In this document: positions 8,280 to 54,249 of the stretch, piece after piece
How the letters are laid out: each line of letters opens with the position of its first letter
Numbering within the stretch: position 1 is the first letter of the stretch
NCBI RefSeq assembly: GCF_023159225.1
Contig: NC_063172.1
Coordinates: forward strand, 45,079,832 to 45,143,831
Direction of reading: 5' to 3'
Length of the DNA: 64,000 nt
Origin: Perognathus longimembris pacificus
Lineage: Eukaryota > Chordata > Mammalia > Rodentia > Heteromyidae
Position numbers and translations under genes: made by a program
Notes under the pieces: generated by a model
Database searches by the model: none
What the model was told of the DNA's origin: nothing
Seen by the model: only the letters and a program-made list of their open reading frames with translations

Positions 8280-8992
8280 TCCCGGCTCTCACTGAGCCAC
8301 TTTCCACCCAGCCTGACAGCGACTGTGGAACGCGGTCTGCACACTTAACCCATCCGTCGCTCGTCCTCTCCTAAGATGCTTTGGGTTTCCTTTCCTAAGC
8401 ACGATTCACACCCCACACACCCCAAAATAAATCAAAGCTCACCACCCCGCGCCTGCCTTCCAGGCCTCGCCACCCAACCTCGCTGTTGGAGAAAAAGTTC
8501 CGGGCATGTCTGCGGGTGCGGTGCGCGTGCCATACCTGCAGTGGGGAAGCCGGCGGGCGCCTGGGAAGTGCTTCCAAGCACCTGGGCTCCAGTGTCCCGG
8601 GCAGAGAGAGCTTCACACCCCAAGCCAGGAGCAATCCCTCTGCAGACCTGCTCCCATCGCCCATCCCACACAAGTCCGCTTGCCAGCTTGCCCCAAGCCT
8701 TATTATGTAAGATCCCCTCCACCGGAGGTCCCAGCTGCAGGCAAGCACCCTCACCGGTCACGCATCTGAAACGGACCCGCGCCCACACCCGCGAGATGAA
8801 ATCAACACCTCCGAAGGGCGGGGGACGTGAGGGGTGCGGGGCTGTCTCACATCATCTCCCTCCCAATCGCTTCTTACAGGGGAATATATATATATATATA
8901 TATTTATTATTTTTATTTATTTTGCCACAACTACAATTACCTTAACAACCAAATTGCTTGAAGCCCTCTCCCTCCAGCTCCGGAATTTCTCC
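8280..8992. promoter_or_regulatory. Left part of a CpG-rich region, interrupted by provirus A
   Basis: CpG density and GC content rise sharply from about 8285 compared with the AT-rich sequence before it. Overlapping open frames appear on both strands, as expected of GC-rich DNA. A (TA)n tract sits at 8884-8902. The region ends at the CTCC (8989-8992) that is duplicated around the provirus. Its continuation is at 12481-13370, so the two halves were adjacent before integration. No exon could be named. Confidence 0.55.
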
Positions 8993-9348
8993 TGAAGTGC
9001 CAGACTTTGAAGTCAGGCTCCATTTTACCACGTGAACCCCATTTTACCACGTGAACCCCATTTTACCACTTGAACCCCATTTTAGAATCAAACCCTGAGC
9101 CAATCAGATTTGTACCTGTGTCCTAATCTTGCTTGCTTGAACACCTGATTCCTGTAACCTTGTTCTTTGCCTATATAAGCCCTGTGTAATCACAGCTCGG
9201 GGCTTCCTCCTAACCTCCACTGTGTCGGTGGGTAGGACGAGGCCTGAGTTACAGCTCGCTTAAATAAAGCCTTGCCTTGCTTTTGCATTTCGGAAATGTC
9301 TGAGTGTTGGTGGTCTTCTTGGTGGTGGTCTTGCGACTTGGCACAACA
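8993..9348 (+). repeat. 5' LTR of provirus A
   Basis: It is 356 bp, TG...CA. U3 carries three tandem copies of a 19-bp unit containing CACGTG (the third reads CACTTG), at about 9020-9080. A TATA box (TATATAAG, 9172-9179) and an AATAAA poly(A) signal (9263-9268) follow in the usual order. The 3' LTR of the same provirus has only one copy of the 19-bp unit. Confidence 0.93.
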
Positions 9349-9350
9349 TT

Positions 9351-9368
9351 TGGGGTTTTGTCCGGGAT
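9351..9368 (+). other. Primer binding site, tRNA-Pro type
   Basis: Two bases after the LTR comes TGGGGTTTTGTCCGGGAT. This matches the tRNA-Pro primer site of gammaretroviruses with a few changes. Copy B keeps a closer match. Confidence 0.8.
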
Positions 9369-9919
9369 GGCCCCAGAGACCCCCGAGACCCCAGACTCCG
9401 AAGGTAAGAAAATAGGGCAGTTCATTCTGTGTGTCTGTGTCTGTGTGATTTGTAGTTTTGTTTTCTGTTTAGGCCAGCCGCTTGAATCTGAACCTGTAGG
9501 TAGTGAAGGACGAGCCGGAGTGGACATGCTTATATGGGCAGTCCTGGAGGACTTGGGGGACACCTCAAGCCCTCCACAGGGGGCTCAGGCTTCCCACTAC
9601 TACTCTGAACCTGAAGGACTGGACCGAGAGGCCCTTCTAATAGGTGTCCGTCTAGTCCACTCTATATTTGGGGTTGTCTGGTCCGCTCCTACACAGGAAC
9701 AGGAGAGAGCGAGCCTCAAGACTGTGGTCTGCCCCCTCACAGGGGCAGGAGAGGCACAGTGAGATTGTGTGGTCTGCCTCCTCACAGGGGCAGGAGAGAC
9801 ACAGTCAAACCTGTAAGCCGCGGCTCCCTAAGTCTGTCTGTAAGTGTTGTCTGGTCTTTGTGCCTGTGATTATTTTTGGGTGTTTCTTTCTTGCACTATG
9901 CCTGACTGACAAACGGATG
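9369..9919 (+). other. ERV leader with splice-donor-like site
   Basis: The non-coding leader lies between the primer site and the gag remnant. 'GAAG|GTAAGAA' near 9401 looks like a retroviral splice donor and is also present in copy B. It contains near-tandem 'cctcacaggggcaggagag' segments. The open frame over part of it is unlikely to be a protein. Confidence 0.6.
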
Positions 9920-10040
9920 ATGGGGAACATTCCCTGGACTTGACTTTAGCTCACTGGAAAGATGTACAGGTGACAGCCCACAATCAGTCAATCAGTGAGA
10001 ATGTCCACAAAAAAGAAATCTAGGGGGACCCCCACCCAGC
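9920..10040 (+). pseudogene. gag: Gag start remnant, broken
   Basis: An ATG-GGG start (Met-Gly, the myristoylation context of retroviral matrix) aligns with the gag start in copy B. A small deletion then shifts the frame, and translation stops after seven codons. The rest of gag is missing. It cannot encode a matrix protein. Confidence 0.65.
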
Positions 10041-10765
10041 CTTCTTAAGCAGAAAATTGTTTGGTGGGCTAAAATGTTTTACTACGACTAAAAATGTTTT
10101 ACTAAAACTATCAAGCCCTGGAAAATGAGGCTGGAGAATGCTAAAATCATTTGTTAAAAGTTTTTGTCTTAAAATGTACAGCCGATGCTTATTCAGCGCG
10201 CTTTAAGATCTTTTGAAAATGTATGTGTGTGTGCATGTGTGAGTGTGAATATGTTCAAGACTGCAGTATGATGCAAAACTAAGTTTAAATTGAAAGGTCT
10301 TCATGCCATGCAGTAACTGGGACTGAAGAAAAGAAAAAAAAGAGGCTCTTTTGAAACAAGCAGTCTGTAGGCAAAGGGCAGCACCTGGTTTCAGAATGCC
10401 TGTGAGCTTCAGTTTTTCCAATGCAGATAAAAGCTAAAATGTTGTGTTAGTGTTAAAAAGGCTTTGGAAATCAAGAATACATTTCTAGATAAGAAATTTG
10501 GAAGTAAAACTGTCCTAAATAATTATTGCAAAGTGAGAAAAGGAGAATTATGGCTACCAAAATGTTTAATTGCCATTCCAGCTTCTTTGTAGGTTTTTTG
10601 TAACAGTTTCCAGCAGGCCCACAGAGAAACACAGGTGATTTCTACAAGTTTGTCGAGATCTAATACTGACCCTTAATAAGTTCCAGGTAAGAGAGCATGC
10701 TTAAAAACTACTTCTGTGTGGACCACCTTGTTGCTTCTAATTGGAGTAAAGTGGCCTCTTATAAG
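10041..10765 (+). other. Non-coding ERV interior of unknown origin
   Basis: This AT-rich stretch occupies the place of gag and pol and is closely matched by copy B (about 40560-41580). It has no gag or pol motifs in any frame. Near 10283-10295 copy A lacks about 320 bp that copy B has. Its origin is unknown to me. Confidence 0.7.
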
Positions 10766-10950
10766 ACTCACTGATCTGAATCTGCGGTTCGAAGCCAGCC
10801 CGGGCAAAGAAAGGTCCCTGTGAGAGACTTGTCTCTAATCAGCCAGCAGAGTGCAGGAAATGGAGTTGTGTGGAGCTCAAAGTGGTAGGGTGCTAGCCTT
10901 GAGCTGGAGATCTGGGGGACAGTGCTCAGGCCCTGAGTCCAAGTCCAGTG
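10766..10950 (+). mobile_element. SINE embedded inside provirus A
   Basis: 'gcggttcgaagccagcccgg' is followed by 'gtggagctcaaagtggta', 'gtgctagccttgagct' and 'cagtgctcaggccctgagt'. This matches the 3' two-thirds of the 7SL-like/tRNA-like dimeric SINE found elsewhere in the window. It lies at the same place in copies B and C, so it was carried by their common ancestor. Confidence 0.85.
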
Positions 10951-11215
10951 GAAAGTCACTCCTCCTGGGACAAAAGTGATGGAGCATCCAGAGGCAGTAA
11001 GCCACTGCTTGGATGGCGGAGATGGTGTCAGATCCTAGAATCACTCCTGTTTGGCCTTTCAAAAGTTAATCAAAGCCGGGAAGTCCCAGAAGAATAGTTC
11101 ATAAGCATGCCTTTCCAATGCCCATGTCTGTCTACTGGGCAGGAACTTGCAAGTCATCTATGATAGTGGTTAGTAAGGGGAAGTTTGTCAAATGAGAGGA
11201 TAGATTAAAATCTCA

Positions 11216-11228
11216 CCCCCCCCCCCCC
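11216..11228. repeat. Poly(C) run inside provirus A
   Basis: There are thirteen consecutive C. At the same place copy B reads only 'caccctcccac', so the run expanded after copy A diverged, or is a sequencing length error. Confidence 0.9.
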
Positions 11229-11333
11229 GCATTTACTCAAAGTTCTGACTGGCAGTAAGAATTTTAAGCTGATACATCTGTTTAGGAAAGAAAGCTTGTA
11301 GACCTGAGATTGTGTCCTTATTGAGATCTGTTA

Positions 11334-11544
11334 AAGGCCTGTCAGCTTGCCAATGCCCCCAATCAACAGATTAACCACGGTGGAAGGGACCCTAGACGGC
11401 ATTGCCACTTGGGTTCATTGCTTCCACGCCAGGCCAGCTGACCCCTTTGCCCTGGATGACAACTACCGTGATGGAACATGGGAAGTTTCCAAGCACCCAA
11501 CTCAGCCGCTTTGCCTTCGCCTCAAGAAAAGAAAGTTAGACTGA
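11334..11544 (+). pseudogene. pol: pol 3' end remnant (integrase), internally deleted
   Basis: A few codons of the integrase zinc-finger region (CQLANAPNQ) run straight into the integrase C-terminal region (WVHCFHARPAD), which ends at the TGA at 11542-11544. The catalytic core present in copy B is missing, and the join is out of frame. The last residues (LRLKKRKLD) match copy B. It is non-functional. Confidence 0.8.
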
Positions 11545-12150
11545 ATATTGTTATAATTTTCTTTTTGCCTTCTTTCCTCACTACCCTGGCTAGTGTTGAT
11601 GTTATTTTGGCAGCTCACTCCAAAGTGAGGTGACCCCCTTATTTTAGGTAGTTTGGGGCTTGCTCAGGAATACGGGTATAGCCACCCAACCCTTAGAGCA
11701 CAGTTGAGAAGTTTATGTATTATTTTGTTGCTTACATTTGGATACTAAACACTATACAGCTAATGGTAAGTCTGTATAGCTGAAAGTTAATTTTCAGTTT
11801 GCAGTAATCCTGCAGTCCCTTGGTAAAGTAGACTAAGGTTATAGGTTCCTGGCTAGGTAAGGTCTACGCCCCTGAGTCAGCCTGAAGAAGTTACAGAAGA
11901 TGGATGATCTTCACCCATCAGCCCCCCTTTAAAATCAAGGGACCAGAGTTGTTTTTGGGAAGATGAGGCAGGATAAACTAGAGGCATGCAAAACAGAGGT
12001 ACAGAGACTGTACGTGTAAGAAATTGTGACAAGCCCTTTGGTTACTACATTGGGCCCTACTGGCCCATGCCTTACCTCTATGTCATCCCCTAGACATGCA
12101 AGCCATTGAAATGGACAGAATGGAGCCATGATTGGCTCCCAAGGTACCAA
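11545..12150 (+). other. ERV 3' interior, env absent
   Basis: It matches copy B 43726-44250. Just after the pol stop there is a short leader-like stretch rich in hydrophobic codons, where a gammaretroviral env would begin. It stops soon after and no env surface or transmembrane region follows. The rest is non-coding sequence up to the polypurine tract. Confidence 0.65.
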
Positions 12151-12167
12151 AAAGAAAAAGGGGGAAA
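12151..12167 (+). other. Polypurine tract of provirus A
   Basis: The unbroken purine run AAAGAAAAAGGGGGAAA abuts the 3' LTR, as needed to prime plus-strand DNA synthesis. Confidence 0.9.
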
Positions 12168-12480
12168 TGAAGTGCCAGACTTTGAAATCATGCCCCACTT
12201 TACCATGTGAACCCCATTTTAGAATCGAACCCTGAGCCAATCAGATTTGTACCTGTGTCCTAATCTTGCTTGCTTGAACACCTGATTCTTGTAACCTTGT
12301 TCTTTGCCTATATAAGCCCTGTGTAATCACAGCTCCGGGCTTCCTCCTAACCTCCGCTGTGTCGGTGTATAGGATGAGGCCCGAGTTGCAGCTCGCTTAA
12401 ATAAAGCCTTGCTTTTGAATTTCGGAAATGTCTGAGTCTTGGTGGTTTTCTTGGTGGTGGTCTTGTGACTTGGTACAACA
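12168..12480 (+). repeat. 3' LTR of provirus A
   Basis: It is 313 bp, TGAAGTGCC...ACAACA, with the same TATA box and AATAAA order as the 5' LTR. It has only one copy of the 19-bp U3 unit (with CATGTG in place of CACGTG) and a 5-bp deletion in 'gccttgccttgc'. CTCC follows directly as the target duplication. Confidence 0.93.
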
Positions 12481-13370
12481 CTCCTACCGCCCAGCTTGAG
12501 CCAGATTCATGGCCCAGCTTGGAGAAGCCTGGGGAACCGAGGAGCGGCCACCCCTTGGGGGCAGGAAGGGAGTCTAGTCTGTGTCCCCGCGGCTGGACGA
12601 CGTGTCGCCTCCACTGTCAGCGTGCGCCTGGGAGCCCAAGCGCTGGGGCTCAGCAAGCCGAGAGCGCAGCCCCGGGCCTGGGGGGAGGCGCGGCAGGTCG
12701 CATGGTGCCCAGGCGCGCGGCGCACGGAGGTCTCCCGTGCACTCCCGGCCGGTTTTGGTTTTCCACGCTCCTCGCCCGCCGGAGGGTGGGTCCGCTCCCA
12801 TGGCGCCCGTCGGCTCCCGGAACTGGGGGAACCCCGAGAGCAAGTGGGCGGGCGGACGGAGCTGCCACTGCCGAGCGAGCAGGGCCGAGCGTTAGGAGCT
12901 GCCCCAACTCACCGAGGCGCTCCGCTTGCTCGGCGGCCCAGGAACTGCGGCTGCGGCTGCGGCTGCGGCTGCGGCACCAGCCGTCAGGTGCCAAGCGGAG
13001 CTGCAGCCCTGCGCCCAGCACACCTGGGCGCCGGCACCTGGATCCCCGCCCACGCCAGGCGAGGCGGGGCCGGCGGCCAGGGCGAAGTGGAGGCACCTGT
13101 GCGCGTTCCAAGGGCACCGCTGCTGGGCTCACCTGATCCCGGCGCCGCCGGAAGTGTGGATCCGGATTCCCCAGGGGAAGGGGAAAACGGGAAATGTCTC
13201 TGCACCTTCAGCAGCCACCGAGAGGCTTGCTGGACCCGCGGGTGGCTCCTTCTGACCCTTCTAAGCAGGGCCGGTTCAGGAACTCGAGGAGTGGCAAGGA
13301 CTCTCTGGGTGCTGTGCCCCCTGGTTTGGGGATTCCTCTTCCAGCGTGAGGTTAGCGCCTTCTGAATTAA
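12481..13370. promoter_or_regulatory. CpG island, right part; possible minus-strand first exon
   Basis: This is the most CpG-dense stretch of the window. It has a (CTGCGG)n-like run at about 12948-12975 and a GC box (GGCGGGGCC) near 13064. Read on the minus strand there are two strong splice-donor matches, ATCAG|GTGAGC (intron from 13132) and CCTCG|GTGAGT (intron from 12912). This is compatible with a minus-strand promoter and first exons. Open frames of up to 289 codons overlap in many frames here, which is a GC effect, and none looks like a known protein. Confidence 0.55.
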
Positions 13371-27005: not shown

Positions 27006-28770
27006 ATAGGAGTATTGTGTGTCTTCTTTGTGAACTTCAAAGTATGCTCAAGCAGAACAGACAGAAGTAAAATGGATGAAAACAACAGAGTGTTTGCCTA
27101 GCATTATTTTTCCTGTGAACAAATCGGTGCCATTTTTTTTTTGAGAAAACTCTTCTTTTAAAATGGGGTTGGGAATAAGCACTCCAAAAAAAAGGGCCAG
27201 CTTCCTTAACATAAAATAAAACGAAATACAACTGGTAGAATGAAATAAGCACTCAACAGCCACAAGAGACCTTAAGACTTAAGTCAAGTGAGGAAGGAAA
27301 TAAAAAAAATCAGATCAAAACAAGCTTCTCAGAGTCCATGAAACATTGCCAGGCAAAGGAAACATGAGAAAAGTGTAAGTAGTGGCTGGTCATTGGTTGC
27401 AGTAGGTTTCCCTAAACACATCCCACTCCAAAGATAGACCATGATGACCACAGCAACAGTCTCCATGGCTAGGGACATAGAAGTAGATATTGTTCCCTGC
27501 CTCCCAAATCATCTCTCCTCACTTCTCTAAAGACCCACAGGAAAGGCCAATGTCTCTTCTTCTACCAGGCATTGTATTGTTCACACATGATGCCTAGAAG
27601 TTGGCAGTCATCTGGTCTGAGGAAAAAATGCATTCTCAGCAGGAAGTATAAAAGAATCTTAGAGAAGCAAAGTCAGGTGCACCTGCCACCAAGCATGAAC
27701 CAAGGTGCTTCCAGCTATGTAGGTAAAGACTTCCTGAAGCTAAAGACTTCCATCAGCTGAAATCAGAATTTTGAATTCCTTACATTAATCAGAAAGAAAG
27801 CTTTCTTACACATCCATTGGATTTTTGAAAGCCACAATTCCTAACAGTTATGCTCTTCCACATGAATCAGGAAATTTATTTTAATTATCAACTGCAAATA
27901 GCAATATCCACAGAGAAAAGACTTTTAAGCGATAAGGGTATTGTTTACCTTGCTTAAAATGAAGCTGGAAGGGAGGTATATTTGGGCTATGTACTCAGAT
28001 GAGAGACAACATCAAAGAGCAGGAAGAAAGATATAGTTTCTTCCTCTATCTCCATTTTCTCACTATGTTCAATTTAATTTACACCAACACAAAAAGAGAA
28101 AGAATGAAAATGGAATCCAGTAGCCTCCATCTCATTACTTCTTAAGCCTCATTGGCCAAGACAGGTGGATTCAATATGGCCATTTCCCATCAAGCAAGCA
28201 CCTGACTTTCCAGGCTGGAGCATGTGGGTGATGAATAGTTCTGGACAACGTTTCCCATTTGCTCAGACAACATCCACACCCAATTTCCTCCACACTAACT
28301 TATGTCCCTATCTCTGAGGAAGCCCATGAAAGTCCCAGAACAGAAAATACATAACAGTGTACAAGTACCAATTTTCCATACTTAATGAAGAACTGGATGT
28401 CAAATTATTGGGAATACCCATTGGCTTGCCATTTGCTGGAGTGGAGTGTGTCCTCTCATAGAGAGAACTCCCATATATGTTTGAAGCTATTGGTTTGCTA
28501 AATTGGTCAATAAAAGGCAATTGGATCTCTCAAATATTTGAACTACAGAGAGTTTTATTCACATATGCAAAAGTTCTTGTGTCATTTGTATTTCTTCCCC
28601 TAAAACATAAGGTTTTTTTTCAAAAATAAATGTTTCTGAGCTGTTCTGTTCCATAGGTAGGCCCTTCCATAGACATTTGGGATATGGTTTAAGGCATTTT
28701 TCTGATAATGTCTTTTTTAAAGAAATGAAAGACAGAAGTGGAAACTTGTATTTTTAAGCATCTATATATG
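27006..28770. other. Unique sequence, no gene recognised
   Basis: I saw no exon, RNA gene or named repeat. Frames of up to 71 codons show no domain. Confidence 0.35.
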
Positions 28771-28861
28771 CTAGATTCTGTATATGGACTTGTCCTATTG
28801 CTCAAATGTATTATCTGACAGATGGTAGATTCAGGGGAGAACTCAAATAGTACCATTCCTT
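28771..28861 (+). mobile_element. L1 3' UTR, left of the ERV retrocopy
   Basis: 'atggtagattcaggggagaactcaaatagt' matches the L1 tail at 4938-4967. The rest of the same L1 3' UTR resumes after the inserted retrocopy. Confidence 0.75.
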
Positions 28862-29059
28862 AGAAAGGCCAAGTCATGACAAAACTCAGTAGATGTGATT
28901 AGTTTTAGCACAGATATATAGCTAGATGAACATATTAACAAATGACATTTACACAGACATACAAAATTCTGGCAAGCATTTGGTCAGTTCTTGACAAGGT
29001 ACAGGTAAGCTCTAGTCCCCTTTGTCTCCTTGTTGTTTTAATTGGAAATAAAAAAGGGC

Positions 29060-29296
29060 TTTTGTGGCAAAGACTCCTTGGATTGCAGTTCAAAGCCAGC
29101 CAGGGCAGAAAAATATCTCAAACTCCATCTCCCAACTAACCAGCGAAGAGCCAGGCTGGAAACATGGCTGAAGAGACTGATCTCTTACCAGCCAAATGCT
29201 GGAAGTGGAGCTGTGGCTCAAGTGGTAGAGTGCAAGCCTCGAGCAGAAGTGCTCAGGGACAGTGCCCAGGCCCTGAGTTCAAACCCCGTGAATGCC
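29060..29296 (+). mobile_element. SINE embedded in retrocopy C
   Basis: 'gattgcagttcaaagccagcc' opens it. The right monomer follows: 'ctgtggctcaagtggtagagtgcaagcc...gcccaggccctgagttcaaacccc'. Flanking ERV sequence on both sides aligns with the flanks of the SINE in copies A and B. About 60 extra bases lie between its two halves. Confidence 0.8.
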
Positions 29297-29752
29297 AATG
29301 GGGGCAAGCCATCCCAGCAACAAGCACTTAGACCCCTGGGACTCAGCCAGTTCAGGGAACAAGGATCATGGAGAGGAATAAAGGAGAATTATGTCACATC
29401 CTAAATGGAGTCACTTTGTCTTGCCCTTTCAAAATTAATCAGCCGGGGATCAAGAGATAGTAGCTTGTCCATCTAATGTCCATACCTGAGTATAAGAACT
29501 GTCCAAGTCATCCAATTTTTAATTTTGTGCCCTAAACCCTTCCTTTTGCCTTAATATTTTGTCCAGCCCCTGCCTCATGAGACTTCTTCCAGGCTTCATT
29601 CAAGGACTGGCATCTACCACCAAGGGCCCCTGCTGCTAGCCTTCTCCAGGAGGGGCCACATTTCTGCCTTTTACCCCTAATGCCAACACCCCTTGCCAGC
29701 AGGAAGCAGCCAGAGAGAGTCTTCGTCCTTCATAACTATTAAAAGGCTGGAA

Positions 29753-30018
29753 TGTTAGGTCCTCTTCCTGAGGGCTCCATGTAGATGCCCCCACCTCATT
29801 AAGTCTCCACCCAGTTACCTGGGTAACCAGCAGACATGGAGGCAGTTACCTCCCCTTTTCCTGAGGTCACTTCCTAATCCACCTGGCCACACCCTTTGCC
29901 CCTGCCCTAGATATAAGGCAGGGCCAGGTGGGGGTCTCCCTCTCTCTCCCTTCTCTCAGGCCATGGATCATCTTGGCCAAAGGCCAGCAGTTCAGTAATA
30001 AACTTTCTTTCCTGCCTG
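29753..30018 (+). promoter_or_regulatory. U3-R part of an ERV LTR in retrocopy C
   Basis: It starts TGTTAGGTCC after a purine-rich stretch (aaaaggctggaa). It has a TATA box (GATATAAGG, about 29911-29919) and AATAAA (29997-30002), and ends in the A tail. The sequence is unlike the LTRs of A and B, so the related interior is combined with another LTR type. Confidence 0.7.
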
Positions 30019-30049
30019 AAAAAAAAAAAAAAGAAGAAAGGCCAAGTCA

Positions 30050-30335
30050 AAGTTCAAACACCAGGAAATAAGTATTTGAAAGAGGTAGGGTGGGGTCAAG
30101 GGGTGGAGGATAGACAAATGAAGAGGAGAAAGGGGTAGAGAGGATGCAGTCAATAATTCAATGTATATCCTACAAAATTAAGAAAAGTGAGGAAAGAGGT
30201 AGATTGGGAGGGATGAGTGAGAATGTTGAAAGTAGGGACATTTATCATGATGCATTATATTCATAAACTGCTTTGTTAAATGGCACCTCCTTTGTATGGC
30301 TACCTAAAAATAACAAACTTTTAAAAAGAAAAAAG
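30050..30335 (+). mobile_element. L1 3' UTR, right of the ERV retrocopy
   Basis: 'aagttcaaacaccaggaaataagta' through 'cataaactgctttgttaaatggcacctcctttgtatggctac' continues the L1 tail from 28861. It aligns with 4973-5250. Confidence 0.8.
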
Positions 30336-31563
30336 AGTAATAGAGGCAGCAAATTTGATCAAAAACAATCACCAGAAAAACCCTTTTTATAGGTAATACT
30401 AATAAAAATAAGTAAAAATTAAAATATACCATAAAAAAGAATAAAGGAAACAGCCTAGTGAACAGTTCAGGGGCTAGCTGTACATCTATCCATGCACACC
30501 CATTCCTTAATCTCTCTTATGGGCAACTAATTTCAAGACTTTCAAAGACCTGCATAAGTAGGACAATTGGTATACCTCTTATGGTATGACACAGGTGTGA
30601 TATTTCTAATCTACCTACATATTTTAGACCCATTACATTTCTTTATCCCTGATATAGGAGTGATAACAATGTCAACTTTATATTAATGTTATGAGAAAAA
30701 ATGAGATAATCTAAAAGCTCAATGCTTAGCAGGCAGCAAGTACTCCAGGAATCACAACCAACCCCAATAAAGTTGGCATCATTACTGCCTATGGAGAACT
30801 GCACCTGGGGGCTCATCACAGTGGATTTGAAAATCAGTCATCATTTCTCAAGCTAGCTGTTCAAGCAGCTGTTAATTTGATGAGAGTATCTATCCCAGGG
30901 AAATCAGCAAGCATTAAAAAGCAAGATTTTATTTCTTAGCCTGTACAACCAGTGGTAAAATGCTTACCAGCACATCACTGGTTAGCACCATTTAATAAGA
31001 ATCAAGAGATTGAGTGATTTACCCAATGAATCAGTGGCAGAAATAGGACATGAACCCGGTTGTATAGATTTCCAAACCTGAGTTCTATCCCCTCATGTAT
31101 AACTACAAATAAAAAGTATTGCCTAATTTTCACAGTCACTCATTCTTTTGTTTAACTATTTGTGGAGCACTTGTGTATAGGCACAAGGCACTGTGATAGG
31201 ATTTACAGAATCTATATGCAAAGAATGTCACAAGTTGTCTTTATCATCACATTAAAACTAAACCTTCCAGTTCACTTCTCAGGAAGCAGTCAGATACTAG
31301 TAACCCAGGTGTTAACCTCCAAGTCTCGCCTTATGACCTCAACAAAACAGTGAGGTTGGTGAACAATTTTGGCATCTATTACTGTTCATCCCACAGCAGC
31401 TTCTAAGGTTACTCTCTCCTTCCTGGTCAGAGTATTAAAGGAACATTTAGAAATTTGCTTGGGTAATAATGCAACTCAATGGATAACGCATGGGCTTAAT
31501 GTGTGCAAAGATTCACTCTGCATCACCAAAACAAATAGAAAAAGATAAAACAATAAAATAAAA
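30336..31563. other. Mostly unique; MIR-like relic at about 30955-31100
   Basis: 'ttgagtgatttacccaatgaatcagtggcagaaataggacatgaacccgg' with 'aacctgagttctatcccc' follows the MIR layout. The remainder shows nothing I can name. Confidence 0.5.
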
Positions 31564-39248: not shown

Positions 39249-39501
39249 AGAAACTACAGCTTTAAAAAAAGAAAAAAGATAAAGATAAAGGAGTTCAGTT
39301 GTGCCGTCATTCCTAGAAACCCCATGGTAAAAGATAAATTTCAGGTAAAGTAGAAATCTAGAGGAAATCCTGGTTATTAGAATGCTGAATTTTATTCAAA
39401 TGTCAGACAAGACCAAAATGAGCTTAGCGGTAATTGCAAATAACTGCAAAGTAGTAAATGAGCACCAAATTTTGGTGCAAGTGAAAACAAATCACACTGC
39501 C
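39249..39501. other. Unique sequence before provirus B
   Basis: No repeat was recognised. It ends in TGCC (39498-39501), the left copy of the target duplication of provirus B. Confidence 0.5.
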
Positions 39502-39838
39502 TGAAGTGCCACACTTTGAAGTCAGGCCCCATTTTACCACGTGAACCCCATTTTACCACGTGAACCCCATTTTAGAATCGAACCCTGAGCCAATCAGATT
39601 TGTACCTGTGTCCTAATCTTGCTTGCTTGAACACCTGATTGTTGTAACCTTGTTCTTTGCCTTTATAAGCCCTGTGTAATCACAGCTCGGGGCTCCCTCC
39701 TAGCCTCCGCTGTGTCAGTTGGTAGGACGAGGCCCGTGTTGCAGCTCGCTTGAATAAAGTCTTGCCTTGCTTTTGCATTTTGGAAATGTCTGAGTCTCGG
39801 TGGTCTTCTTGGTGGTGGTTTCATGACTTGGCACAACA
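39502..39838 (+). repeat. 5' LTR of provirus B
   Basis: It is TG...CA, with two tandem 19-bp U3 units, each with CACGTG (about 39529-39566), a TATA-like TTTATAAG (about 39662-39669) and AATAAA near 39753. It closely resembles the LTRs of copy A and the solo LTR at 53.9 kb. Confidence 0.93.
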
Positions 39839-39840
39839 TT

Positions 39841-39858
39841 TGGGGGCTCGTCTGGGAT
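39841..39858 (+). other. Primer binding site, tRNA-Pro type
   Basis: TGGGGGCTCGTCTGGGAT differs at one base from the classic gammaretroviral tRNA-Pro site. It starts two bases after the LTR. Confidence 0.9.
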
Positions 39859-40414
39859 GGCCCCAGAGACACCCCCCCCCCCCAAGACCCCAGACTCCAA
39901 AGGTAAGAAAATAGCGCTGTTCATTCTGTGTGTCTGTGTCTGTGATTTGTAGTTTTGATTTCTGTTTTGGCCAGCTGCCTGAATCTGAACCTGTAGGTAG
40001 TGAAGGACCGGCCGGAGTGGACATGTTCGTATCGGCCATCCTGGAGGACTTGGGGGACACCTCAAGCCCTCCACAGGGGGCTCAGGCTTCCCACTACCAC
40101 ACTGAACCTGAAGGACTGGACCAGGAGGCCCTTCTAACGGGTGCCCATCCAGTCCACTCTATATTCGGGGTTGTCTGGTCTGCTCCTACACGGGAACGGG
40201 AGAGAGAGAGCCTCAAGACTGTGTGGTCTGCCCCCTCACAGGGGAAGGAGAAACACAGTGAGACTGTGTGATCTGCCCCCTCACAGGGGCAGGAGAGACA
40301 CAGTCGAACCTGTAAGCCGCGGCTCCCTAAGTCTGTCTGTAAGTATTGTCTGGTTTTTGTGCCTGTGATTATTTTTGGGTGTTTCTTGTGCTGTGCCTGA
40401 CTGACAAACGGATG
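39859..40414 (+). other. ERV leader with splice-donor-like site
   Basis: It aligns with the leader of copy A. A poly(C) run lies at about 39872-39882. 'AAAG|GTAAGAA' near 39901 resembles a retroviral donor. The 'cccctcacaggggcaggagag' phrase is repeated. Confidence 0.6.
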
Positions 40415-40495
40415 ATGGGGAACGTTCCTTCCACTCTCCTGGACTTGACCTTAGCTCACTGGAAAGATGTACAGGTGACAGCCCACAATCAGTGA
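40415..40495 (+). pseudogene. gag: Gag matrix start, 26 codons then stop
   Basis: ATG-GGG opens a frame with the matrix-like motif LTLAHWKDVQ that stops at a TGA (40493-40495). The Met-Gly start is the myristoylation context of gammaretroviral Gag. The Leu-Thr-Leu...His-Trp-Lys-Asp-Val motif is typical of the matrix N-terminus. Everything after it in gag (capsid, nucleocapsid) is missing. It cannot form particles by itself. Confidence 0.75.
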
Positions 40496-41585
40496 GAGTG
40501 TCCGCAAAAAAAGAACTCTAGGGGGACCCCCACCCAGCCTTCTTAAGCAGAAAATTGTTTGGTGTGCTAAAATGTTTTACTAAGACTAAAAATGTTTTAC
40601 TAAAACTATCAAGCCCTGGAAAATGAGGCTGGAGAATGCTAAAATCATTTGTTAAAGGTTTTTGTCTTAAAATGTACGGCCGATGCTTATTCAGTGCACT
40701 TTACGATCTTTTGAAAATGTATGTGTGTGTGCATGTGTGAGTGTGAACATGTTCAGGACTGCAGTATGATGCAAAACTAAGTTCAAGTTTAAAGTCAAAG
40801 GGTCATCAAGTTTTGGCATTACCAAATGCTTTAAAGGTATTATTGCATTGTTTTAAAGAGGAACTAGAGTTAAAAAAGGATTCTCAGGGTTTTTTAATTA
40901 AAATAAAAAAAAATCAGAGCTAAGTGTCAGAAATTTGGATTTAAAAGGATATGTATATACTAAACTAATGGGGATAGAAGTAAACTCTCATTAACTCTAT
41001 GTATGTAGGAAGAAATGGCAAAATGGGCCAATGTTTCTCACTAATATATTGAAAACCTGAATGGATAAGTATTTCTAATTGTAATTCTTGCATTAAGGAA
41101 AAATTCAAAGGTCTTCATGCCATGCAGTAAGTGGGACTGAAGAAAAAAGAAAAAAAAAAAGAGGCTCTTTTGAAACAAGCAGCCCTTAGGCCAAGGGCGG
41201 CACCTGGTTTCAGAATGCCTGTGAGCTTCAGTTTTTCCAATGCAGATAAAAGCTAAAATGTTGTGTTAGTGTTAAAAAGGCTTTGGAAATCAAGAATACA
41301 TTTCTAGATAAGAAATTTGGAAGTAAAACTGTCCTAAATAATTATTGCAAAGTGAGAAAAGGAGAATTATGGCTACCAAAATGTTTAATTGCCATTCCAG
41401 CTTCTTTGTAGGTTTTTTGTAACAGTTTCCAGCAGGCCCACAGAGAAGCACAGGTGATTCCTACAAGTTTGTCGAGATCAAATATTGACCTTAATAAGTT
41501 CCAGGTAAGAGAGCATGCTTAAAAACTACTTCTGTGTGAACCACTTTGTTGCTTATAATTGGAGTAAAGTGGCCCCTTATAAGAC
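40496..41585 (+). other. Non-coding ERV interior of unknown origin
   Basis: It is homologous to copy A 10041-10765, with about 320 extra bases (about 40790-41107). No retroviral protein motif was seen in any frame. It sits where gag-pol should be. Confidence 0.7.
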
Positions 41586-41770
41586 TCACTGATCTGAATT
41601 TGCGGTTCGAAGCCAGCCCGGGCAAAGAAAGGTCCCTGTGAGAGACTTGTCTCTAAGCAGCCAGCAGAGCGCTGGGAACAGAGTTGTGTGGAGCTCAAAA
41701 TGGTAGGGTGCTAGCCTTGAGCTAGAGAGCTGGGGGACAGTGCTCAGGCCCTGAGTCCAAGTCCAGTGGA
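41586..41770 (+). mobile_element. SINE embedded inside provirus B
   Basis: 'gcggttcgaagccagcccgg', 'gagctcaaaatggtagggtgctagccttgagc' and 'gtgctcaggccctgagtcc' match the copy A SINE base for base over long stretches. The ERV flanks on both sides are the same. Confidence 0.88.
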
Positions 41771-42261
41771 AAGTCACTCCTTCTGGGACAAAAGTGATGG
41801 AGCATCCAGAGGCAGTAAGCCACTGCTTGGATGGCGGAGATGGTGTCAGATCCTAGAATCACTCCTGTTTGGCCTTTCAAAAGTTAATCAAAGCCGGGAA
41901 GTCCCAGAAGAATAGTTCATAAGCATGCCTTTCCAATACCCATGTCTGTCTACTGGGCAGGAACTTGCAAGTCATCTGTGATAGTGGTTAGTAAGGGTAA
42001 GTTTGTCAAATGAGAGGATAGATTAAAATCTCACCCTCCCACATTTACTCAAAGCTCTGACTGGCAGTGAGAATTTTAAGCTGATACATCTGTTTAAATC
42101 TTGTAGACCTGAGATTGTGTCCTTACTGAGATGTGTTAAAGGCCTGCAAAGGTAAGTTTTTAGGTCATCAGAGATCAGTTCCCCAGACAATCAGGAAAAT
42201 GCTTTTACAAACTAGAATGTTAAAAGGCACAAATTTGTAAACCTGAAGTCACCCATCTGGG
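41771..42261 (+). other. Non-coding ERV interior
   Basis: Up to about 42146 it matches copy A 10951-11341. The last 115 bp, starting 'caaaggtaagttttt' (a splice-donor-like word), have no counterpart in copy A. Confidence 0.6.
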
Positions 42262-42467
42262 CCGTGGTGGAACATGGGAGGTCTCCAAGCACCCAACTCA
42301 GCCGCTTTGCCTTCGCCTCAAGAAAAGAAAGTTAGACTGAATATTGTTATAATTTTCTTTTTGCCTTCTTTCCTTACTACCCTGGCTAGTGTTGATGTTA
42401 TTTTGGCAGCTCACTCCAAAGTGAGGTGACCCCCTTATTTTAGGTAGTTTTGGGCTTGCTCAGGAAT
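42262..42467 (+). repeat. 206-bp direct repeat, upstream copy
   Basis: It is nearly identical to 43647-43852, which covers the last codons of pol and the sequence after the pol stop. This copy sits upstream of the integrase, out of its normal order, so it is a duplication within the element. Confidence 0.9.
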
Positions 42468-43725
42468 TCATATTAAAAGAGAGCAAGCGTTGGCTGTCAG
42501 ATGCACGTAGACTGTGCTGAAAATCCCTTTGCCTAAATCAGCCAGACAAGTCAGACTTCCTGGGAACAGACTTCAGTAGACCTTGGGCCACGAGCTTTGC
42601 CTCCTGTGCCCCAGTATTCCCAAGAAGGCTTGGAGTGGATAAAGAAAATTTCCATGGCCCACAAAAGGAGGAAGGAAACAATGACTGGTGGAAAACTTGT
42701 GAAGGGAAACTTATCCTGCCACAAGGGCTGGGTAAGGGGATCCTTAAGAGAATCTGAGCTTCTAACATGGGAACCCGAAAAATGCAGGACTGCTCCAACA
42801 AACCAAAGTGAAAATTAGACAAGGAGATCAACTTTATTGAAGATACTGTTAAAAATTGCAAGGCCTGTCAGCTTACCAATGCCCCCAATCAACAAATTAC
42901 TAAAGGAGCTCGCCTCTGGGGGAATAGGCCAGGTGTGTATTGGGAAGTAGATTTCACCGAAATTACAAATATTTGCTAGTTTTTGTAGACACCTTTTCAG
43001 GATGGGTTGAAGCATATCCAACAAAGCATGAGACTGCGAATGTAGTAGCTAAGAAGATCCTGGAAGAAATCCTATCCAGGTATGGCTTCCCATCCACGAT
43101 TGGGTCAGACAACGGACAGGCTTTCATGTCAAAAGTAAGTCAGGGAATAGCTGCAGCACTGGGGACGGATTGGAAATTGCATTGTGCTTATAGACCCCAG
43201 AGTTCAGGACAGGTAGAGAAAATGAATCAGGCTCTAAAAGAAACCTTAACTAAACTGGCCTTAGAGACTGGCGCAGAATGGGTGTGACTCCTTCCTTTTG
43301 CTCTGCTTAGAGTAAGAAATTCTCCCTATCAGCTTGGCTTTACTCCTTTTGAAATAATGTACGGGTACCCCCCAGCCCATTATCCCTAGCCTTCAGACTG
43401 AATTGGTTGCTGATTTGGATGATGCTGAATTTTTTTGTAAACTCGGTTATTTGCAGCTCATGCACAAGAATGTGACCCCAACTTAAGGCATTATATGATT
43501 CTTCTTCTGTCCCTACCCCCCATTTATTCAGACCAGGGGATTGAAATCCTTAGAACCATGGTGGAAGAAACCCTAGACAGCATCACCATTTGGGTTCATT
43601 GCTTCCACGCCAGGCCAGCTGACCTCTTTGCCCTGGACGACAACTACCGTGGTGGAACATGGGAGGTCTCCAAGCACCCAACTCAGCCGCTTCGCCTTCG
43701 CCTCAAGAAAAGAAAGTTAGACTGA
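42468..43725 (+). pseudogene. pol: pol 3' region: degraded integrase
   Basis: Pieces of a gammaretroviral pol 3' end lie in shifting frames. There is a zinc-finger part with CKAC (about 42857-42868), then VDFTE (about 42947-42961, first catalytic Asp), and a frameshift with a small deletion. The core has GSDNG (second Asp, about 43107-43121) and the region of the third catalytic acidic residue (GQVEK, about 43208-43222). A TGA at 43285-43287 ends the core frame. A C-terminal part has WVHCFHARPAD and ends LRLKKRKLD with a stop at 43723-43725. With a frameshift and a stop it is not functional. Protease and reverse transcriptase are absent. Confidence 0.88.
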
Positions 43726-43852
43726 ATATTGTTATAATTTTCTTTTTGCCTTCTTTCCTCACTACCCTGGCTAGTGTTGATGTTATTTTGGCAGCTCACT
43801 CCAAAGTGAGGTGACCCCCTTATTTTAGGTAGTTTTGGGCTTGCTCAGGAAT
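43647..43852 (+). repeat. 206-bp direct repeat, original position
   Basis: It spans the end of pol and the following leader-like stretch, in the same context as in copy A (about 11464-11671). This is therefore the original, and the copy at 42262-42467 is the duplicate. Confidence 0.9.
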
Positions 43853-44250
43853 ACGGGTATAGCCACCCGACCCTTAGAGCACAGCTGAGAAGTTTATGTA
43901 TTATTTTGTTGCCTACATTTGGATACTAAACACTATACAGCTAATGGTAAGTCTGTATAGCTGAAAGTTAATTTTCAGTTTGCAGTAATCCTGCAGTCCC
44001 TTGGTAAAGTAGTCTAAGGTTATAGGTTCCTGGCTAGGTAAGGTCAACACCCCTGAGTCAGCCTGAAGAAATTACAGAAGATGGATGATCTTCACCCATC
44101 AGCCCCCCTTTTAAACCGAGGGACCAGAGTTATTTTCGGATACTACTTTGGGCTCTACTGGCCCATGCCTTACCTCTATATCATCCCCTAGACATGCAAG
44201 CCATTGAATTGGACAGAATGGAGCCATGATTGGCTCCCAAGGTACCAAAA
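43853..44250 (+). other. ERV 3' interior, env absent
   Basis: It matches copy A up to the polypurine tract. A stretch of about 90 bases present in copy A (around 11958-12045) is missing here. No env domain was seen. Confidence 0.6.
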
Positions 44251-44265
44251 AGAAAAAGGGAGAAA
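44251..44265 (+). other. Polypurine tract of provirus B
   Basis: AGAAAAAGGGAGAAA lies directly before the 3' LTR. Confidence 0.9.
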
Positions 44266-44597
44266 TGAAGTGCCAGACTTTGAAGTCAGGCCCCATTTTA
44301 CCACGTGAACCCCATTTTACCACGTGAACCCCATTTTAGAATCGAACCCTGAGCCAATCAGATTTGTACCTGTGACCTAATCTTGCTTGCTTGAACACCT
44401 GATTGTTGTAACCTTGTTCTTTGCCTTTATAAGCCCTGTGTAATCACAGCTGATCCCTCCTAACCTCCGCTGTGTCGGTGTGTAGGACGAGGCCCGTGTT
44501 GCAGCTCGCTTGAATAAAGTCTTGCCTTGCTTTTGCATTTCAGAATGTCTGAGTCTCGGTGGTCTTCTTGGTGGTGGTTTCATGACTTGGCACAACA
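44266..44597 (+). repeat. 3' LTR of provirus B
   Basis: It is 332 bp, TGAAGTGCC...ACAACA, with two 19-bp CACGTG units, TTTATAAG and AATAAA. It is followed by TGCC, the right copy of the target duplication. Confidence 0.93.
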
Positions 44598-44601
44598 TGC
44601 C

Positions 44602-53913: not shown

Positions 53914-54249
53914 TGTTGTGCCAAGTCGCAAGACCACCACCAAGAAGACCACCGAGACTCAGACATTCCGAAATGCAAAAGCAAGGCAAGACTTTATTCA
54001 AGCGAGCTGCAACTTGGGCCTCGTCCTACCCACCAACACAGCAGAGGTTAGGAGGGAGCCCTGAGCTGTGATTACACAGGGCTTATAAAGGCAAAGAACA
54101 AGGTTACAACAGTCAGGTGTTCAAGCAAGCAAGATTAGGACACAGGTACAAATCTGATTGGCTCAGGGTTCGATTCTAAAATGGGGTTCACGTGGTAAAA
54201 TGGGGTTCACATGGTAAAATGGGGCCTGACTTCAAAGTCTGGCACTTCA
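53914..54249 (-). repeat. Solo LTR of the A/B ERV family
   Basis: It is 336 bp. On the minus strand it begins TGAAGTGCC and ends ACAACA, with two 19-bp U3 units (one CATGTG, one CACGTG), TTTATAAG and AATAAA. GACA flanks both sides (53910-53913 and 54250-54253). It arose by recombination between the two LTRs of a provirus. Confidence 0.95.

Follow-up and report, generated by a model that had tools for sequence, protein, structure and literature searches.

Defective retroelements that travel beside a coding relative are the closest described parallels to the elements analyzed here. VL30, in its relation to MLV, is a class I non-autonomous element that stands beside gag-bearing relatives, as ours do, and the likeness extends to the layout of primer site and polypurine tract, which we take to be MLV-like. 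To our knowledge there is no SINE in VL30. The two cases differ in that here one interior is found with two unrelated LTRs, and in that we infer mobilization by the gag class, whereas co-packaging of VL30 with MLV is described in extracts of PMC6466679 and PMC4997597. The pair ETn and MusD is similar in that an element without coding capacity is mobilized by a coding relative (extract of PMC6466679), but it belongs to class II while the present elements are gammaretrovirus-like. The parallel with VL30 and ETn had been drawn in an earlier note on this DNA, and it is apt, since gag-bearing relatives with the same LTR exist. An LTR in common is reportedly also a feature of ETn and MusD. The TRIMp3 elements (Helenus, Ajax and Cassandra) are LTR retroelements that contain small-RNA-derived sequence thought to be a SINE insertion; according to an extract of PMC10886601 this part is found within the LTR, where a role as Pol III promoter is proposed for it, and the elements reach at most about 1.3 kb. 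Here the SINE is internal in both types of element, outside the LTRs, and the elements measure about 2.5 kb or more. Membership of TRIMp3 was rejected, as the SINE is internal and not in the LTR. The elements described below thus differ from known hitchhikers in having a fixed SINE and the same interior under two LTR types. Within a limited library and set of terms, the titles and abstract openings that we searched described no ERV family in which a SINE is fixed in the interior and this interior stands under LTRs of two types; for rodent SINEs in general we refer to PMC5335264, seen as an extract.

The window, by which we mean the whole stretch of 64,000 nucleotides of Perognathus longimembris pacificus that was analyzed, contains two proviruses, A and B, and a further element, C, each with a SINE fragment. 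The genome searched comprises 2.21 Gb. The SINE occupies a common site in common flanks under two LTR types, both types include copies with identical LTR pairs, and the genome holds a gag-bearing class with the A-type LTR. Taken as a whole, these are probably hitchhikers of the VL30/ETn kind that followed one ancestral acquisition of the SINE, with exchange between two ERV lineages.

Proviruses A and B are gammaretrovirus-like. Provirus A, defined by its LTR pair and target duplication, extends over 8989-12484 (forward strand, as for all features below unless stated). It is bounded by CTCC target duplications at 8989-8992 and 12481-12484, and its LTRs (8993-9348 and 12168-12480) are 92.5% identical over 293 aligned bases. 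The primer site (9351-9368), which has some changes relative to the tRNA, is presumably tRNA-Pro-like, and the polypurine tract (12149-12167) adjoins the 3′ LTR. A frame at 11335-11541 contains the end of an MLV-type integrase (PF18697, E 1.6e-05, below the curated cut-off). Provirus B, defined in the same way, extends over 39498-44601 including its TGCC target duplications. Its LTRs (39502-39838 and 44266-44597) are 95.9% identical, and it retains a remnant of the integrase core at 42928-43284 (PF00665, E 6.7e-16); matches to the integrase end are weak in both proviruses, lying below the curated cut-off. The different duplications of A and B bear out the earlier view that they are independent insertions. 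A solo LTR of the same family lies on the reverse strand at 53914-54249, with the target duplication TGTC.

The LTRs of A and B have TG...CA ends, and each provirus has a primer site, a polypurine tract and 4-bp target duplications, in a layout that we take to be MLV-like. The structural features of a VL30/ETn-like element are all present, from paired LTRs and a target duplication to the primer site and the polypurine tract, and in the subset of frames tested in A and B there are only remnants of pol, without gag or RT. With LTR pairs that are only 92.5% (A) and 95.9% (B) identical, the two are not among the youngest insertions. Across the A-type loci the primer site takes two main forms, TGGGGGCTCGTCC and TGGGGTTTCGTCC, both of which are found in one locus (L026). 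The U3 region of these LTRs also carries a short tandem unit (CCATTTTACCACGTGAACC and variants) that varies in copy number (9020-9085 and 39527-39572 in the window).

The full SINE type, as seen in other copies in the window, is a dimer of a left and a right part, which we take to be B1-like and ID-like, respectively. In A about 50 bases of the left part are missing. The fragment runs from about 10773 to about 10950 (10773-10950), with a 5′-truncated B1-like part followed by the ID-like part, in the sense orientation of the ERV; a poly-A tail was looked for and is absent. The start had previously been put at 10766, but nucleotides 10766-10772 are ERV sequence outside the SINE. The fragment in B (41591-41768) has the same site and ends, and SINE plus flanks are 95.2% identical between A and B over 251 bases. 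In C the SINE (about 29080-29290) is shorter by about 7 nt at the 5′ end and contains an additional block of about 48 bases, and so is homologous to that of A without being the same. The statement of the earlier note that A, B and C have the same fragment in the same flanks is thus correct for A and B, and for C has to be relaxed to homology with different ends and the additional ~48 bases.

There is no significant target duplication around the SINE. The best candidate in A, AAGACTCACT / AAAGTCACT at the two ends, scores 11, which ~23% of random pairs reach (p about 0.23), and the best in C scores 10 (~51%, p about 0.51). Two marks of separate insertion had been proposed for these SINEs, different endpoints and target duplications of their own; the latter are not seen, and endpoints differ somewhat between A/B and C. 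A SINE that is 5′-truncated and has neither poly-A nor a significant target duplication may have been picked up as RNA, by a template switch of the retroviral reverse transcriptase onto a co-packaged SINE or SINE-bearing host transcript at the time when the defective element took shape. Small host RNAs, 7SL among them, are packaged into retroviral particles (extract of PMC4997597), and for this reason such a capture is a fair rival to insertion by L1. We hold it tentatively, as a possibility somewhat short of even: old duplications and tails decay, a weak candidate duplication exists at both ends in A, and the homology of flanks between A and C discussed below tells us of an old SINE but nothing of its means of entry. 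Capture as RNA would concern only the route of arrival, and it is compatible with our reading of a single ancestral acquisition.

Element C (28862-30049) is a retrocopy of L1 type, made from a transcript of a second ERV family and showing the pattern expected from twin priming. It is flanked on both sides by the 15-base duplication AGAAAGGCCAAGTCA, and its poly-A, from about 30019, follows the end of the U3-R part of a C-type LTR (29757-30018, beginning TGTTAGG...) that has no match to the A/B LTR. The first ~84 bases of C (about 28879-28963) have the opposite orientation at 25 of the 40 genome places scored, these being the best of 1126 first-look candidates in a left-flank search with C, and about 8 bases are missing at the joint in C. 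A 5′ inversion of this kind is the pattern left by twin priming. With a long target duplication, a poly-A tail and a 5′ inversion all present, the earlier view that C was moved by L1 stands. The same three features, with the poly-A placed after the end of U3-R, liken it to L1-processed copies of the HERV-W type; HERV-W is said to be mobilized by L1. Unlike these, C is a single event that has spread further by segmental duplication. The remaining 15 of the 40 places comprise the C locus and, on small scaffolds, 14 copies of it, and the left host flank of C is present in 14/14 of these at about 97-98% and the right flank in 13/14. Because they have the host flanks of C in common, the 14 are segmental duplications of one event. 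As an observation on the genome itself, the presence of the locus with its host flank (28100-30600) on 14 small scaffolds shows that this part is segmentally duplicated.

Fifteen of the 25 listed C-type loci were retrieved (L054-L068), and all 15 have C-type LTR sequence together with the SINE. The LTR pairs are of about 318 bases (TGTTAGG...CCTAACA). The primer site, TGGTGCCRTGACTCGG, which we assume to be tRNA-His-like, is exact in six of the ten loci with a recognized junction, and the remaining four show a single change each. Target duplications are of 5 bases (GTATG in L059, CTCTT in L067 and GCAAG in L066), and in L057 and L065 the flanks agree at 4/5 bases. Thus the C family differs from A/B in LTR, primer site and duplication length, and comparison of the A-type with the C-type LTR and primer site gave no match. 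C had been thought a third copy of a single ERV family with A and B; this is excluded, since its 3′ end is a different LTR.

The interiors are nonetheless related. About 1.1 kb of non-coding interior (10046-11158 in A), with the SINE inside it, is homologous in patches between A and the C-type elements, comprising 10726-11158 and a weaker patch at 10046-10320. When the weaker patch was compared with ten of the 15 C-type loci, 0/100 shuffles reached the real score in nine and 1/100 in L066, and reversed sequences scored below the real ones in all ten, although these loci belong to one family and are therefore not ten independent tests. The right flank alone, A against C, scores 44 where the maximum in 1000 dinucleotide shuffles is 22; the left flank scores 18, attained by 2/1000 such shuffles, and two negative controls lie at or below the shuffle scores. 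Nucleotides 11160-12165 of A have no homology with the C-type stretch before the 3′ LTR (111/200 shuffles as good), which places the end of the homology near 11158. At aligned positions A and C are identical in 74/90 for the ID part, 103/123 for the right flank and 36/43 for the left flank, so that by this measure conservation is no greater in the SINE than in the sequence on either side.

It might be supposed that the common interior is captured host DNA that already contained the SINE, and not ERV sequence that received it, given that no Pfam match was obtained for two frames examined in A, taken from the leader and the interior next to it. Among the best 40 matches scored with a DNA query, in what is a large family, we found no host locus from which it could have come, and we consider this origin unlikely. 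A second alternative, that two similar SINE fragments inserted independently at one place in the A-type and C-type interiors, would account for the lack of the 48-base block in A and of about 7 nt in C, and for the long branches of the SINE tree (0.23 for the A-type, 0.16 for the C-type). Yet in the same tree, which is unrooted and excludes B, one truncated generic SINE and the younger SINE type of the window, the A-type and C-type SINEs group together against nine generic copies, with modest support (71 by SH-aLRT, 89 by bootstrap). They further agree in their site within homologous flanks, in orientation and nearly in truncation, and two separate insertions appear distinctly improbable. The evidence supports the earlier proposal that the SINE was in the ancestor and spread with the element. 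On our reading of a single acquisition the SINE would be a heritable tag, marking one non-coding interior under two unrelated LTRs whose primer sites and duplication lengths differ.

How general is the filled site? The A-type pattern with the SINE in place occurs 799 times genome-wide (418 + 381) and the reversed-pattern control 0 times; it is therefore not due to chance. The search for an empty-site ERV that the earlier note had called for gave 0 A-type examples genome-wide, using a left anchor that differs from that of the filled pattern. A left-flank query free of the SINE, with 40 of 2144 first-look candidates scored, yielded 30 loci including A, and the SINE adjoins the flank in 30/30; besides A, four others repeat a junction row already present, among them L011, L013 and L018 with the row of L010. 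The junctions are identical in A, B and the other A-type loci of the alignment, from which five rows identical to earlier rows were left out. Ten further loci were found through the integrase, six picked because no filled site was listed nearby and four for an integrase frame of about 286 aa. Eight of them have the SINE. The other two, L071 and L074, have lost the SINE along with most of the flanking sequence; these are larger deletions, not empty sites.

Copies with identical LTRs are found in both types. Four A-type pairs (L019, L020, L022 and L028) have 0 differences over 308 bases each, with 4-base duplications GTAT, ATAG, AACT and AAGG, respectively, and so do the C-type pairs of L059 (321 bases) and L065 (317 bases). 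In L032 the 4-base flanks are out of register and do not match. Both combinations of LTR and interior thus occur with identical LTR pairs in one genome, and exchange between ERV lineages, which is usually argued from trees, becomes visible in the sequence and datable.

Which elements might have copied them? A search for gag p30 (PF02093), in which 150 of 926 candidates were scored, gave groups of about 404, 252 and 242 bits. The best-scoring group was rejected as a partner, with no match to an A- or C-type LTR, leader or segment in the retrieved stretch of 12/12 loci (L079-L090, E 1e-4). One copy from the 252-bit group, L091, was read at its 5′ end. It has an A-type LTR that is 97.4-99.7% identical over about 308 bases to those of nine SINE-bearing copies (L036, L019, L020, L022, L025, L032, L038, L034 and L028), and 86-90% identical to the LTRs of the window itself. 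Its leader agrees with several SINE-bearing copies for about 135 bases and then diverges; apart from this common leader, the 370 bases that were read downstream of the LTR contain no match to the SINE segment.

The exact pattern of the A-type LTR/primer-site junction occurs 451 times, of which 100 were listed, and the 69 on contig C1 and on contig C2 below 87.2 Mb were cross-checked. Thirty lead to the SINE within 4.5 kb and nine to gag p30, at a distance of 1084-1087 bases; no junction leads to both, and 30 lead to neither list, where the SINE places are those of the filled list plus matches from other genome searches, and both the SINE and the gag lists are lower bounds. The 30 junctions in neither list, for which these lower bounds may account in part, may include further deletion forms or a third class. 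With its 1045 bases in A, the SINE segment is too long for the space from LTR to p30 once the beginning of gag is accommodated there as well, and the gag class accordingly lacks it at this place. The LTR of the A/B type is thus also that of a gag-bearing class, known from p30 and from the 5′ end of one copy, and this class is likely to be the helper. Elements recovered by integrase matches were rejected as the autonomous partner: no unaligned gap of more than ~840 bases separates leader and integrase in 10/10 loci, out of 150 scored, and the space upstream is too small for gag or RT. With candidate gag-bearing helpers in the same genome, it could be studied how defective elements keep pace with the LTR of a helper. 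Many gammaretroviral gag frames are open, in at least three score groups, over half of the 150 scored rows having at least 600 codons, and their activity therefore looks recent.

The history that we propose would begin with a single event, in which a truncated dimeric SINE entered an internal, non-coding segment of a defective ERV. This SINE-bearing segment would then have become the interior of two non-autonomous families in the genome, probably by recombination between co-packaged RNAs that brought it under a second LTR. One would be the A/B type, with its MLV-like layout, Pro-like primer site and 4-bp duplications; the other would be the C type, whose LTR is unrelated and whose primer site is His-like, with duplications of 5 bp. 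Copying of the A/B type would have been the work of gag-bearing relatives that agree with it in LTR, primer site and the first ~135 bases of leader, and in which the SINE segment is absent between LTR and gag. The C type was presumably copied by another helper.

Does the SINE do anything for its carrier? A role of the segment as RNA, in packaging, export or as a promoter, could explain why it was kept and passed between families. It is retained in two families whose LTRs are unrelated and each of which includes identical LTR pairs, whereas leader, integrase and env parts differ from copy to copy; this comparison is biased, since a flank of the segment itself served to find the loci. The sequence itself suggests otherwise. 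Predicted folding of the SINE of A is no better than that of shuffles (z +1.5 and +1.3), and for C it is not significantly so (z -1.4, 21/200 as good). The Pol III boxes in the ID part of A have 2 and 3 mismatches, and its B1-like part has an intact B box but no A box; those in the ID part of C have 1 and 2 mismatches, within the range of generic copies. Among A-type copies with identical LTRs there are small deletions in the SINE or at its end, in 2/10 integrase-found loci (L071 and L074) the segment is mostly gone, and at the left-flank loci similarity to A is generally no higher in the SINE than in the flanks. No tRNA was found at 10700-11000, and the only Rfam match at 8900-12600 is far below the gathering score. 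The roles in packaging, promotion or export that the earlier note had considered thus find no support in folding or boxes, and retention for such a role seems quite doubtful. Judged by the folding of A, the mismatched boxes of its ID part and the deletions in identical-LTR copies, the SINE is most likely a passenger. Very improbable, in our opinion, is that the SINE segment is a transferable cis-acting cassette that would pass between unrelated ERV lineages, differing in primer tRNA and integration signature, and mark their RNAs for packaging or export, by which a host SINE would be turned into a common signal for retroviral hitchhikers.

Provirus B contains a direct repeat of 206 bases (99%) at 42262-42467 and 43647-43852, the copies being 1385 bases apart around the integrase remnant. 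Provirus A has a single copy of this repeat without the intervening stretch, as if that stretch had been lost or gained between repeats.
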